Shown: positions 41,019-47,000 of the stretch, piece after piece | Position numbering within the stretch: position 1 is the first letter of the stretch | Layout: every line of letters starts with the position of its first letter | Source: Alphaproteobacteria bacterium | GTDB taxonomy: Bacteria; Pseudomonadota; Alphaproteobacteria; Geminicoccales; Geminicoccaceae | DNA: 64,000 bases | Assembly: GCA_027045875.1 (NCBI GenBank) | Contig: JALUAG010000030.1 | Location: 1 to 64,000, forward strand | Direction of reading: 5' to 3' | Notes under the pieces: model-generated | Databases searched by the model: none | What the model was told of the DNA's origin: nothing | What the model saw: the letters and a program-made list of their open reading frames with translations, nothing else | Program-made: the position numbers and the translations under genes

Positions 41019-42395
41019 GTGCGCCTAACCTGGGAGCAGCCAACAACCGCGGCCGAGCCGGGGACTCGCGGATGGCTCGGCCGTCTGACGACCTTGCTGG
41101 CGGGCGGCCGGCCGGACGAGCAGGGACGGGTGAGCCACTACGGTCTCGCCCTCACCCGGTGGGTGGCGGTCATCGGCCAGCTCTTCACCATCCTGTTCGT
41201 TCATTTTTCGCTCGGCATCCCGCTGCCCCTGGCGGCACTCCTGCCGGCGGTGGCGTTCAGCGTTCTCGTCAATCTCGGCCTCGCCCTCGCCCTCGGCTGG
41301 CGCGCCCGCCTGTCGGAGCGGGCGGCGGGGATGCTCTTCGTCTACGACATCCTCCAGCTCGCCTACCTGCTCTGGCTCACCGGCGGCATCCAGAACCCCT
41401 TCAGCGTCCTGCTGCTGGTGCCCGTCGGCCTCGCCGCCGGGCTCCTCGGCCGGGCCTGGACGGTGGGACTCACGGTACTAACCCTCCTCGTGGTGACCGT
41501 CATTTCGCTCGCCGCCGACGCCCTGCCGTGGTACGGGGGCGGGCTGCGCCTGCCGCGGCTCTATCTGGTCGCCGGCTGGGCGGGAATCAGCATCGCCATC
41601 GTGCTGATCGCGGTCTACGCTTGGCAGTTCGCCGAGGAGGCCCGGCAGCGGGCCAATGCCCTTGCAGCCACCCAGCTCGCCCTGATGCGGGAACAGCAGC
41701 TCTCCGCCCTGGGCAGCCAGGCGGCCGCGGCGGCCCATCTCTTGGGCAGTCCGCTCGGGACCATCGCCGTGGTCGCCAAGGAGCTCGCGCGGGAACTCCC
41801 GGAAAGCCACCCGCTCTACGAGGACGTGCGGGAGATCCTCGAGCAGACGAGGCGATGCCGGGAAATCCTGGCCACGCTCGGTCAGCAGCGCGACGAGGGG
41901 GCGCTCGAGCGGCTGACCCCGGTGCCGCTGACCTCGGCGCTGGCCGAGATCGCCAAGCCCTTCGAGCGTCCCGGTGTCGCGCTGCGTATCGAACTGCACG
42001 AGGAGGACGGGACGCCGGAACCGCAGATTGCCTTGCCGCCCGAGATCCGGCATGCTTTCGCCAACCTCATCGACAATGCCATCCAGTTCGCGAACAGCGA
42101 GGTTCTGGTGACCGTCCGGCCCTCCCGAAGCAGACTGCTGGTGACGATCGAAGACGACGGGCCGGGATTTTCGCCGGAAGTGCTGGGCTGGCTGGGCGAA
42201 CCCTATCTGTCTACTCGTCACGACAAGGGAGGTCTCGGGCTCGGCGTGTTCATTGCCAAGACGCTGCTTGCCCGAACCGGAGCGACCATGCATTTTGACA
42301 ATACACGGCGCGGTGCACGGGTGACCCTGCGGTGGCCCGGCGATGCGCTGGAGCGGGCCGTCGAGGAGACCAGCAATGGGTGTGGAAACCCCTGA
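41019..42395 (+). CDS. regB: RegB/PrrB-type redox-sensing histidine kinase with altered H-box
   Basis: A 458-residue kinase from GTG 41019 (GCAGGA upstream), close to the 460 of PrrB; the longer upstream frame is low-complexity noise. About six membrane helices (residues 43-200) include the quinone/redox-box motif GGIQNPF at 122-128. The DHp helix keeps the RegB pattern AAAAAH with His240, but the next residue is Leu (HLLGSPL) where RegB and nearly all HisKA kinases have Glu (HELGTPL). The ATPase domain has N (NLIDNAIQFA), G1 (DDGPGF) and G2 (GGLGLGVF) boxes intact. The two following regA genes are its likely targets. No cysteine lies beside the phosphorylation helix. Confidence 0.92.
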   Translation: MRLTWEQPTTAAEPGTRGWLGRLTTLLAGGRPDEQGRVSHYGLALTRWVAVIGQLFTILFVHFSLGIPLPLAALLPAVAFSVLVNLGLALALGWRARLSERAAGMLFVYDILQLAYLLWLTGGIQNPFSVLLLVPVGLAAGLLGRAWTVGLTVLTLLVVTVISLAADALPWYGGGLRLPRLYLVAGWAGISIAIVLIAVYAWQFAEEARQRANALAATQLALMREQQLSALGSQAAAAAHLLGSPLGTIAVVAKELARELPESHPLYEDVREILEQTRRCREILATLGQQRDEGALERLTPVPLTSALAEIAKPFERPGVALRIELHEEDGTPEPQIALPPEIRHAFANLIDNAIQFANSEVLVTVRPSRSRLLVTIEDDGPGFSPEVLGWLGEPYLSTRHDKGGLGLGVFIAKTLLARTGATMHFDNTRRGARVTLRWPGDALERAVEETSNGCGNP

Positions 42396-42966
42396 CGCGC
42401 AGCAGGCAGCGGCCCTCGCGGGTCTGGCCAAGGGCGGCGAGCCGCCCAGGCTGCTGCTGATCGACGACGATGCGCCGTTGCGGCGGACACTGGAGCGGGC
42501 ACTCGCCCGCCGCGGGTTCCTCGTGCATCCGGCGGCCGGGGTACGCGAGGCGTTGGCCGTCGCCCATCAGGTGAAGCCGGATTTCGCGGTGGTCGATCTG
42601 CGCCTCGAGGACGGTAGCGGGCTCGAGCTCGTGCGCCGGCTGCGCGAGATCCACCCCAAGATCCGGATCGTCATCCTGACCGGCTACGGCAACATCGCCA
42701 CCGCGGTGGCGGCCATCAAGGCCGGGGCGGTGGACTATCTCGCCAAGCCGGCGGATGCCGACGACGTGGTCAACGCGCTCCTGTGCAGCGGCAGCGGCCT
42801 GCCGCCACCGCCCTGCAATCCCATGTCCGCCGATCGTGTGCGCTGGGAGCACATCCAGCGGGTGTTCGAGCAGTGCGGGCGCAACGTTTCGGAGACCGCC
42901 CGACGGCTCAACATGCACCGGCGGACCCTGCAGCGCATTCTGAACAAGCGGGCGCCGCGCGAGTAG
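42376..42966 (+). CDS. regA: RegA/PrrA-type response regulator (copy 1)
   Basis: A 196-residue regulator. The receiver domain (about 25-140) has Asp30-Asp31-Asp32, phosphoacceptor Asp74 (AVVDLRLEDGSG), Thr102 and Lys124. A short proline linker leads to the Fis-type HTH domain with the family-invariant QCGRNVSETARRLNMHRRTL and QRILNKRAPR. Its ATG lies 20 bp inside the end of regB, so the two are translationally coupled. RegA activates or represses respiration, nitrogen- and carbon-fixation or photosynthesis genes; the targets here are unknown. An N-terminal extension of about 20 residues precedes the receiver. Confidence 0.94.
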   Translation: MGVETPDAQQAAALAGLAKGGEPPRLLLIDDDAPLRRTLERALARRGFLVHPAAGVREALAVAHQVKPDFAVVDLRLEDGSGLELVRRLREIHPKIRIVILTGYGNIATAVAAIKAGAVDYLAKPADADDVVNALLCSGSGLPPPPCNPMSADRVRWEHIQRVFEQCGRNVSETARRLNMHRRTLQRILNKRAPRE

Positions 42967-43008
42967 GCTTCGCTCGGCCGCGTCCTCTCGGGGAGGAGCG
43001 ACGGGATC

Positions 43009-43566
43009 ATGGCTGCGGCGGGCGTACGGACGGGGGCGCGGCGCGGTCGGCTGCTCATCGTCGACGACGACGCGGGAATGCGGCGCACGCTGGGGAGGCT
43101 GCTGCAACGCGCCGGCTTCGGCGTGCTGACGGCGGCGAGCCTCAAGGAGGCCTACGAGGTGGTGGCCGACCAGCCGCCCGACTTCGCCGTGGTCGATCTC
43201 AACCTGGCCGATGGCCACGGCATGGAGCTGGTGCGCGGCCTGCAGGAGATCCGCCCGGGCATCCGGGTGGTGGTGCTGACGGGATACGACAGCATCGCTT
43301 CCTCGGTGGTGGCCACCAAGGCCGGGGCCTGGGGCTATCTGGCCAAGCCCGTGGACACCGAGCGGCTCATCGCCACCCTGCTGGGCGACGCGCCGGTCGT
43401 CTCCGAAGAGGGCACGCGGCCCATGTCGGCCGATCGCATCCGCTGGGAGTACATCCAGCGGGTGTTCGAACAGTGCGGCCGCAACGTCTCGGAAACCGCA
43501 CGGCGGCTCCACATGCATCGCCGCACTCTGCAGCGGATTCTGAGCAAGCGCGCTCCCCGTCCGTGA
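43009..43566 (+). CDS. RegA-type response regulator (tandem paralogue)
   Basis: A 185-residue second RegA, 42 bp after the first. The receiver is intact: Asp19-Asp20-Asp21, phosphoacceptor Asp63 (AVVDLNLADGHG), Thr91 and Lys113. The receiver differs from copy 1 at many positions. The DNA-binding domain is almost identical (GRNVSETARRLHMHRRTLQR with a KRAPRP end). The pair should therefore recognise the same DNA while receiving different or graded input from the kinase. Its own ribosome site (GGGGAGGAG) precedes ATG 43009. The 387 bp after its stop contain no convincing gene. Confidence 0.92.
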   Translation: MAAAGVRTGARRGRLLIVDDDAGMRRTLGRLLQRAGFGVLTAASLKEAYEVVADQPPDFAVVDLNLADGHGMELVRGLQEIRPGIRVVVLTGYDSIASSVVATKAGAWGYLAKPVDTERLIATLLGDAPVVSEEGTRPMSADRIRWEYIQRVFEQCGRNVSETARRLHMHRRTLQRILSKRAPRP

Positions 43567-43953: not shown

Positions 43954-44556
43954 TCAGGCGCGGCCCGCCAGGGTCTCGAACATCACCACGAAGCCGCGAC
44001 GCCCGCTGTGACCGCCCGAGACGGCCACCGCGATCGCCTGGGAAGTGCGCACCTTACCCGGCGAGACGTAGGTGGCGCTGAAGGCGCCGCGTCGCAGGCG
44101 CGCCTCGAGCAGGCCCGTCCACATCTCCTTGATGCCGGGGCCCCGCAGGATCATGATGTTGTCGATGCGCTGCCCGACGGTCGCCTTGGGATCGAGATTG
44201 AGCCACAGGTAGAAGGAGCGGTTGAGCTGCTTGATGATGCGTTCCGCATCGAGCACGAGGCAGGGCAGCGGGCAGGCCTCGAGAACCCGGGCGAGATCCT
44301 GGGAGTTGCCAGCCAGCGCGAGACGGTCCAGCTCCTTCTGCAGGGTCTCGCAGCGTAGCCGGGCGTGGGTCAGGCAGAAGGTCCGGAGCATCGAGGCGAG
44401 GTTCGCCTTGCCGTTGCGGGCGCGGGCCACCTCGTTGACGACGGCGCCGAGACGCGTCCCCCGGCTGGCCGCGATCTCCTTCAGATAGTCCCAGAATTCC
44501 TGCTCGAGCTTGATGGATGTGCGCACCTCGCCGACGCGCATGGTCTTGCGGATCAT
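43954..44556 (-). CDS. Ribbon-helix-helix (RHH_4) regulator with C-terminal PAS-like domain
   Basis: A 200-residue protein. Residues 8-50 form an alphaproteobacterial RHH_4 DNA-binding domain: VRTSIKLEQEFWDYLKEIA followed by SRGTRLGAVVNEVARAR. Residues 85-195 look PAS-like: LEACPLPCLVLDAERIIKQL, NRSFYLWL, a helix and RRGFVVMFE as the last strand. No known cofactor motif is visible. The architecture suggests a one-component sensor-regulator, which is unusual because RHH proteins rarely carry sensory domains. ATG 44556 has GGAG upstream; a GTG at 44583 is an alternative. The divergent gene is the RTX protein, a likely target. Confidence 0.75.
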   Translation of the reverse strand: MIRKTMRVGEVRTSIKLEQEFWDYLKEIAASRGTRLGAVVNEVARARNGKANLASMLRTFCLTHARLRCETLQKELDRLALAGNSQDLARVLEACPLPCLVLDAERIIKQLNRSFYLWLNLDPKATVGQRIDNIMILRGPGIKEMWTGLLEARLRRGAFSATYVSPGKVRTSQAIAVAVSGGHSGRRGFVVMFETLAGRA

Positions 44557-44656
44557 GACCACGCTCCGCGTGCTGCCATCCACACACTGGGTACCATAAT
44601 GTCCCCCTGGGGGCAGTTACCGGTTGAGCCCCATTGTGTGAAGGGATAAGTTTCAT

Positions 44657-44720: not shown

Positions 44721-47000
44721 ATGACGGAACACAGCAGGCTGCCCGCCACATCGCCGGAAGCGACCGAGGCCGCTGCGGCCGCGAACCAGGGCGCGGAGAC
44801 GGCCGGCCGGGCCGGGACTCCGGTGGCCCCCGTCGCCGAGGCGATCGCGCCGCCGCCGCCCGGCGTGGTCGAGACCGTTCCGGTGCCACCCGGTGCCAGG
44901 GTCGTGCTCTCGGATCCGGCGTTCGACCCGCGTGTCGCGCGCTACGTCGTCGACGGCGAGGATCTCGTTGTCACCCTCGACAACGGTGCCGTGCTGCGTC
45001 TCGAAGGGTTCTTCGCCGCCGGCGACAATCCGCCCAGCCTGTCGGTACTCGGCGGACCGGACCAGACGGCCACCACACTGCTCGCCGGCGCGGCCGAGGC
45101 GGCGGCGGTGGAGCCCGCGGCCGGTCCCGGGGCGGCGGCACCGGCGCACGGCGGCGGGGCGGGGTTCGCCCCGTTCGCGGCCGGTGACATCGGCGACGGG
45201 CTGACGCCGACCGGCGTGCTGCCGCCGACCGAACTGGCGGGCGGCCCCTTCGCCGGCGGCATCCTCGAGGGCGTCGATCCGGGGATCGGCGGTCCCGCCG
45301 CGACCGGGCCCCTGCCGGGCGAGGCGCCCGAGATCAGCGTGCAGAACTACGTTCGGGCGACGGCGGCCGAGCGCAGCGTCGCGTTCGATCCGGCCAGTAC
45401 GGACAGGCAGCTCAGGAACCCGGACAGCACCGATCCGGTCGAGCGCAACGGCGTCGATCCCCGCAACCTCACCCTCGACCGGACGCGGGAGGTGGAGGTC
45501 GTCTTCCAGAGTGAGGAGGCGGGCTACGACAACACCCTCGGGTTTTTCACCATCGACGAGGACGGCACGTTCGGCGATGTCGGCATCATCTTCCCGAACG
45601 TGAGCCAGGTCGGCGACAGCGACGGCGACGGCACCCTGACGCCCGGCACGCGCACCTCGCTCGGCACCTTCGACGCCGGCACCCGGCTCGGCTTCTTCAT
45701 CATTCCCGACGGTGCGAACGCGAATCCCGGGCTCGAGGGGCTGCTCGGCAGCGGCCGGTTCGAGCTGCGGAACGGGAATACCGGCGAGCCCCTGAAGATC
45801 ACGGACACCGCCGCCGACGACCCGATCCTCGTGCACATCGCCGACGACGGTACCGAGACCGTGCTCTCCGGCGCCCTTTTCTTCTCCACCGACGCCACGC
45901 CGGAAACCCCCGAGGAGAACGCGCTCAATCCGGACGGTGCGGGCAAGACCGCCTCGGGCTTCAAGGCCAAGGAGGGCGATCTCCTGATCGGGTTCGAGGA
46001 CCTCACCGGTCCCGGTGCCGACAACGACCTGAACGACGTCGTCTTCCGGGTCCACTTCAAGCCGGTCTACGAGAACTTCTTCTTCGTCAAGGATCACGAG
46101 ACCCCGGACTTCAAGGTACGGATCTCCGACACCGACAGCACCCGGCTCTCGGGGGCCGAGGTGACATTCCAGGGAGGGCAGCAGCCCGGTGACCGGCTCA
46201 CGCTCGCGACCTTCGAGGACGCCGACGGCGACGGCATCCTCGACGGCACGAACATCGCGGTGACGGAGAATCCCGACGGCAGCCTGACCTTCTCCGGGAT
46301 CGATTCCGTCCTCAACTACGAACAGGTGTTGAACGACGTACGGTTCGTCACCGACGGCGGCGCGCCGCCCGGCAACCGCTTCGTCGGCTTCGAGGTCACC
46401 GACGCGGAGGGGCACCGATCGGACGTCGCCGTGTCCAAGGTGAACGTGCTCGACAATCTGATCGTCGGTACAGAGGGGAACGACGTCCTGACCTCCGGCA
46501 ACAAGATTCACGCCCTCTCGGGGCGCGGCGGCAACGACCTGCTCACCGGCAAGGGCACCGCCGACTATCTCGACGGCGGCGACGGTCGCGACCAGCTGTT
46601 CGGAATGGGGGGCGACGATCTCCTCCACGGTGGTCCGGGGATCGACACCCTCTGGGGCGGTGACGGCGCCGACACCTTCCGCGTCACGAGCCTCGGTGAC
46701 GGTCGCGACATCATCCGCGATTTCGATCGCACCGAAGGCGACCGGATCGATCTTTCGGAGCTCCTCGCCGGCAGCGGCATCGACGCCCCGGGTGCCGTGG
46801 AGGACGACTTCGTGCGCATCGCTTACACCGATTTCGACCGTGACGGGTTCGAGGACGACGTGCGCGTGCAGGTGGATCTCGATGGCCCGGGCGGCGAGCA
46901 CGTCTTCAACCAGGTGCTGGTCCTCACGGATCCGGCGGGACTGCCGCCCGGCAGCCTGACGCTGGCCGATCTGGGCGCATCCGACGGCGCCACCAGCTGA
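44721..47000 (+). CDS. RTX / DUF4114 repeat protein, predicted type I secretion substrate
   Basis: A 759-residue acidic protein without a Sec signal. An N-terminal Ala/Pro-rich region (about 1-175) contains a VVDGEDLVVTLDNGAVLRLEG segment like those of type I-secreted adhesins. A DUF4114 domain (about 265-455) is recognised by GFFTIDEDGTFGDVG, the DSDGDGTL loop and FEDLTGPGADNDLNDVVF, which is a calcium-binding pattern. A cadherin-like middle region follows. RTX nonapeptides lie near 605-655 (GRGGNDLLTGKG, DGGDGRDQLFGMGGDDLLHGG). The C-terminus has the DG.D.I.DFD..EGDRIDLSELL pattern of type I targets. No transporter genes adjoin it. Confidence 0.87.
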   Translation: MTEHSRLPATSPEATEAAAAANQGAETAGRAGTPVAPVAEAIAPPPPGVVETVPVPPGARVVLSDPAFDPRVARYVVDGEDLVVTLDNGAVLRLEGFFAAGDNPPSLSVLGGPDQTATTLLAGAAEAAAVEPAAGPGAAAPAHGGGAGFAPFAAGDIGDGLTPTGVLPPTELAGGPFAGGILEGVDPGIGGPAATGPLPGEAPEISVQNYVRATAAERSVAFDPASTDRQLRNPDSTDPVERNGVDPRNLTLDRTREVEVVFQSEEAGYDNTLGFFTIDEDGTFGDVGIIFPNVSQVGDSDGDGTLTPGTRTSLGTFDAGTRLGFFIIPDGANANPGLEGLLGSGRFELRNGNTGEPLKITDTAADDPILVHIADDGTETVLSGALFFSTDATPETPEENALNPDGAGKTASGFKAKEGDLLIGFEDLTGPGADNDLNDVVFRVHFKPVYENFFFVKDHETPDFKVRISDTDSTRLSGAEVTFQGGQQPGDRLTLATFEDADGDGILDGTNIAVTENPDGSLTFSGIDSVLNYEQVLNDVRFVTDGGAPPGNRFVGFEVTDAEGHRSDVAVSKVNVLDNLIVGTEGNDVLTSGNKIHALSGRGGNDLLTGKGTADYLDGGDGRDQLFGMGGDDLLHGGPGIDTLWGGDGADTFRVTSLGDGRDIIRDFDRTEGDRIDLSELLAGSGIDAPGAVEDDFVRIAYTDFDRDGFEDDVRVQVDLDGPGGEHVFNQVLVLTDPAGLPPGSLTLADLGASDGATS

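Follow-up and report, generated by a model that had tools for sequence, protein, structure and literature searches.

The closest described relatives of the kinase presented here are the redox sensors RegB, PrrB and ActS, a widespread bacterial type known from Rhodobacter, Sinorhizobium and Burkholderia, which have a membrane sensor region, the quinone-binding motif GGxxNPF (PMC8191878), a redox-box Cys, the phosphorylated His, the N, G1 and G2 boxes and an adjacent regA gene. In HisKA kinases the residue following this His (H+1) is an acid; published accounts treat it as strictly conserved and assign it the role of general base in autophosphorylation (PMC8292422, PMC3904827). The general base of CpxA is its H+1 Glu, which also touches the first Asn of the N-box (PMC3904827). 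Replacement of the acid in CrdS, HK853, HK4262 and HK1190 led to loss of autokinase activity with the phosphatase retained (PMC3510030), in NtrB the autokinase was lost as judged by phenotype (PMC3510030), and in Agp1 activity was abolished (PMC8292422). These mutants agree with the initial annotation of our locus, according to which the acid supports autophosphorylation. A natural H+1 variant, DrBphP, functions as a phosphatase only (PMC8292422).

The window, a stretch of 64,000 nucleotides, comes from a draft genome of 3.5 Mb in 110 contigs. Its regB gene (41019..42395, forward strand, as are all features below unless stated; the GTG start at 41019 is uncertain, and the stop is at 42395) encodes a redox sensor histidine kinase of the RegB/PrrB/ActS type, scoring 452.6 bits with the NCBIfam model NF033792 (ActS_PrrB_HisK) against a cut-off of 350. 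Alignment places the heptapeptide GGIQNPF, corresponding to GGxxNPF, at 41382..41402, the Cys of the redox box (RRCREI), predicted to be redox-active, at 41856..41858, the N-box NLIDNA with its first Asn intact at 42063..42080, the G1 box DDGPG at 42153..42167 and the G2 box GGLGLGVFI at 42228..42254, and with all three ATP-binding boxes present the HATPase_c profile gives 62.4 bits. The regA1 gene (42376..42966), an orthologue of RegA/PrrA/ActR of the kind that adjoins regB across the host family, starts within the end of regB with an overlap of 20 bp and is followed after 42 bp by regA2 (43009..43566), a paralogue specific to the host family. On the 3' side of regA2 lies a gene on the reverse strand (43954..44583) for a protein with an N-terminal ribbon-helix-helix (RHH_4) and about 130 residues without a Pfam match, a possible RHH-sensor fusion, and beyond it a gene (44721..47000) for a probably secreted protein with RTX-type calcium-binding repeats and a DUF4114 domain.

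The H-box of the kinase (ALGSQAAAAAHLLGSPL) has the core HLLGSPL instead of the usual HELGTPL, as the initial annotation had reported, and this feature of a complete RegB recurs in genomes of the same genus. The codon of the phospho-acceptor His (41736..41738) is kept, Leu (41739..41741) replaces the Glu at H+1 and Ser stands at H+4, departing from the HisKA rule H-E/D-x-x-T/N, and the Pfam HisKA profile scores 18.2 bits, under its cut-off of 26.9. At H-6 (41718..41720) the kinase has Gln in the position of the Leu or Ile found where H+1 is acidic. All 11 other HisKA kinases of the genome with a readable H-box carry Glu or Asp at H+1, and their H-6 residue is hydrophobic; a sequencing error at H+1 is excluded by these kinases and by the agreement of two genomes of the same genus (G001, G002). 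A second RegB-like kinase was not detected in the same genome at E<=1e-15. The Ser at H+4 was rejected as part of the anomaly, since it is ordinary in RegBs with Glu at H+1 (52/130 sites of the scan described below). The window RegB differs from RegB/PrrB/ActS in its Leu at H+1, its Gln at H-6 and the second regA downstream. It shares the lack of an acid beside the phosphorylated His with DrBphP and with the CrdS E372A and HK853 E261A mutants, but in DrBphP the H+1 residue is His and the H+4 residue Glu, and the two mutants are laboratory changes without the Gln at H-6.

In the host family we sampled 31 genomes (the same 31 represent the order), found RegB in 30 and compared 29 complete kinases. 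The H+1 acid is missing in 21 of these (15 Leu, 4 Met and 2 Ala) and present in eight (5 Glu and 3 Asp). Leu at H+1 together with tandem regA genes occurs in G001 and G002 and also in many other genera. In the RegB tree the 21 non-acid kinases form one clade (support 100/97), and its sister (94/99) consists of the kinases of G019 and G310, which have HELGSPL and both regA genes. The loss of the acid is fixed in this lineage. All 21 variants retain the N-box with its first Asn, the G1 and G2 boxes, the redox Cys and GGxxNPF, and all keep Ser or Thr at H+4. Elsewhere, the N-box Asn has been lost in some non-acid lineages (G099 and both kinases of family f110), so that the intactness of the motifs in the 21-kinase clade is not trivial.

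When the 21 variant kinases were compared column by column with 15 that have the acid (5 family HE, 7 class HE and 3 family HD), only H+1 and H-6 separated the two groups fully near the active site, Leu or Ile at H-6 being replaced by Gln in 21/21 variants and 0/15 others. The two positions lie seven residues (two helical turns) apart and so point to the same side of the DHp helix. The column at H-29, a signalling-helix position (P0001 residue 209; 41649..41651), also separates the groups, with Met, Leu or Ile in acid RegBs and Arg, His or Gln in 21/21 variants.

A scan of the H-box context in 289 alphaproteobacterial genomes, made with a stringent DNA pattern that demands Ala at set positions and therefore misses unusual RegBs, gave 130 sites in 129 genomes. 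RegB identity was confirmed for the 17 non-acid sites and a sample of the acid ones; among the acid matches, the second of the two in G184 is unlike RegB. Glu or Asp at H+1 with Leu, Ile, Val or Met at H-6 was found at 113/130 sites, 100 of which are the Leu and Glu combination. The acid is missing in the remaining 17/130: six have Gln at H-6, always with Leu, Met, Ala or Ser at H+1, and eleven have Leu at H-6 with Gln (6), His (2), Lys (2) or Ala (1) at H+1. Gln at H-6 with an acid at H+1 occurred at none of the 130 sites (6 versus 0). Outside the host family Gln at H-6 was seen in G214, G099 and G229, all of them RegBs with the usual motifs. A Fisher test on the class table gives p ~2e-6 when relatedness is ignored, and a safer measure is the number of origins in a tree of 51 kinases. 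There, Gln at H-6 arose three separate times, all three forced by well-supported branches (the branch of G229 is very long and its exact position unsure), and the acidity of H+1 changed about 8 times, four of them forced. As judged from these alignments and trees, the coupling of H-6 and H+1, absent from the initial annotation, is a stronger correlate of H+1 loss than the second regA.

Among the RegBs with other residues at H+1, two from family f110 (L056 and L057, in G132 and G235) have HKLGSPL, have lost the first N-box Asn and adjoin a single regA; they are possibly kinase-dead natural RegBs. Others (L058-L063 in f19 and f50, L064 in f129 and L065 in f82) have HQLGTPL or HHLGTPL with Leu at H-6, and their N-box Asn and G1 box are intact. 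A phylum-wide search with the non-acid H+1 pattern returned 7 matches outside the class, probably chance matches to other proteins and none informative, and a plasmid search returned only distant rhizobial and Azospirillum RegBs. The limited set of open-licence literature that was searched contained no account of an H+1-acid-free RegB, of the H-6/H+1 coupling or of tandem regA genes, which is weak evidence.

The order of G229 was sampled more fully. This gave 55 RegB-type H-boxes, of which 51 combine Gln at H-6 with Ser at H+1 and 4 have Leu and Glu, and such a distribution within one order points to compensation, not decay. All six loci read from it carry the RegB motifs. The genomes are of about 1.2 Mb, with about 28.5% GC at the sampled locus, and bacteriorhodopsin-family proteins were present in 6/6 genomes tested; a small-genome, proteorhodopsin-bearing and apparently oceanic order fits SAR11/Pelagibacterales. 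Only three histidine kinases have been detected in strain HTCC1062, RegB among them (PMC13198564). The N-box in this order also differs, being NF[IV]GNA in kinases with Gln and Ser (L079, L080, L054) and N[IL]IDNA in those with Leu and Glu (L075-L078), possibly a third coupled change.

As to the regulators, RegA1 reaches 278 bits with NF033791 (cut-off 250), and RegA2, at 222.8 bits, falls below that cut-off and forms its own clade nested among the RegAs (support 100/99, the exact branching point being poorly supported). Both receivers retain the acidic pair, the phospho-Asp (74 in RegA1, 63 in RegA2), the Thr (102 and 91) and the Lys (124 and 113), as the initial annotation had described. The initial annotation had also stressed their near-identical DNA-binding domains and divergent receivers. 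The figures agree, with 91% identity between the Fis-type HTHs (42823..42960 in RegA1 and 43423..43560 in RegA2) and 58% between the receivers, but the likeness of the HTHs is unremarkable, as the RegA HTH is conserved generally: identity averages 94% between RegA1 and RegA2 of the same genome and is 97% among RegA1s of the family and 87% to the RegA of another family. The similarity reflects constraint on an extremely conserved domain. Gene conversion of the HTH was rejected, since codons for the same residue differ at 17/39 positions in the HTH and 29/63 in the receiver, and with this equal divergence the two regions look equally old.

RegA2 shares the Fis-type HTH and the catalytic residues with RegA/PrrA/ActR but differs at the position two residues after the phospho-Asp (D+2), which is an invariant Asn in RegA2 and Arg in 35/36 RegA1s, and after the switch Thr, where it reads GYDSIASS in place of GYGNIATA. 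Among 200 genomes of the class the GYDSIAS signature is confined to the host family. The residue at D+2 of receivers affects dephosphorylation rates (PMC8510515). It is likely, from these differences and the shared HTH, that RegA1 and RegA2 divide the labour by acting on the same operators with different phosphate lifetimes. That the two compete for the same operators, as the initial annotation proposed, is plausible because of the 94% mean HTH identity. Kinase recognition usually resides in the beta1-alpha1 segment of the receiver. This segment (65% identity between the paralogues) and the phospho-Asp segment (70%) are among the better conserved, and because of the former the sequences are consistent with both regulators being partners of RegB. 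Away from the main locus in two relatives, at G004 C1:3100452-3101687 and G005 C36:166865-167392, there are a further, distant RegB-like kinase (28% identity) and another RegA.

We give even chances to the interpretation that the locus encodes a working RegB/RegA system with a kinase from a clade whose autokinase site has been recurrently remodelled. In the sequences of the host clade the H+1 Glu has changed to Leu, Met or Ala and the H-6 Leu to an invariant Gln, with the phosphorylated His kept. RegB would still phosphorylate RegA1, and probably RegA2, and dephosphorylate them; the histidine would be activated independently of the H+1 carboxylate, with the H-6 Gln as part of the compensation, and the balance of kinase and phosphatase would probably be tilted towards the latter. 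RegA2 is a tandem duplicate of older date; it shares its DNA-binding domain with RegA1 but has a receiver altered at positions that tune phosphorylation kinetics, and so probably reads RegA1 operators with a different phosphate lifetime. The retention of the ATP motifs, N-box Asn, redox Cys and GGxxNPF in 21/21 kinases argues for this, as do the at least three origins of the H-6 Gln, only with a non-acid H+1, the absence of a second RegB-like kinase in the genome at E<=1e-15 and the intact catalytic residues of both receivers. Doubt comes from the H+1 mutants of other kinases, which lose autokinase activity (PMC3510030, PMC8292422). From CrdS, HK853 and DrBphP one would expect the window RegB to be a phosphatase only, one that senses quinone or redox state, does not autophosphorylate and only removes phosphate that RegA1 and RegA2 receive from another kinase or small phosphodonors. 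The ATP site would then be kept because nucleotide stimulates the phosphatase, as ADP does in HK853 (PMC7005713), and the H+4 Ser or Thr kept in all variants would also suit a phosphatase, although Ser is common in acid RegBs as well. However, no second RegB-like kinase that could charge RegA was found in the genome at E<=1e-15, the recurrent coupling with H-6 Gln is not expected from simple loss of kinase activity, and the N-box Asn is fixed in 21/21. We consider a phosphatase-only RegB the main rival, a serious but somewhat doubtful explanation.

The initial annotation had further suggested that the substitution belongs together with the second regA in a single rewired system, in which two regulators with different phosphate input compete at the same operators. 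Assembly duplication, which it had named as a possible refutation, is ruled out by the presence of the tandem pair in 20 host-family genomes. The association itself is real in part: RegA2 is present in 18/21 host-family genomes with a non-acid RegB and 2/8 with an acid one, and the HTHs are nearly the same with differing receivers. However, RegA2 already accompanies an HE kinase in G019 and G310, and in three HL genomes (G009, G013 and G015, of which the G013 assembly is 86% complete) it was found neither beside RegB nor elsewhere at E<=1e-45, so the H+1 change neither required nor caused the second regA. The distribution of RegA2 on the RegB tree indicates that it is older than the H+1 loss, and the non-acid RegBs of other alphaproteobacterial families adjoin a single regA wherever a regA was found. 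Joint evolution as one unit therefore seems improbable to us. We put even less trust in decay, with RegB as a degenerating pseudokinase and RegA working mostly unphosphorylated: H+1 is also Gln, His, Lys or Ala in other alphaproteobacterial RegBs, some without the N-box Asn, but in the 21 kinases of many genera the other motifs are intact and the H-6 Gln is invariant.

Beyond the host family, we tentatively suggest, with somewhat less than even confidence, that there may be a second functional type of RegB H-box, in which Gln at H-6 offsets the missing H+1 carboxylate, with at least three origins including the SAR11-like order; the HisKA general base would then be dispensable in nature. The recurrent loss of the H+1 acid in RegB challenges the textbook active-site rule for HisKA kinases, and the RegBs without it either use a different chemistry or are natural phosphatases. 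Either answer would change the annotation of RegB, apparently including that of SAR11-like bacteria with very few histidine kinases.
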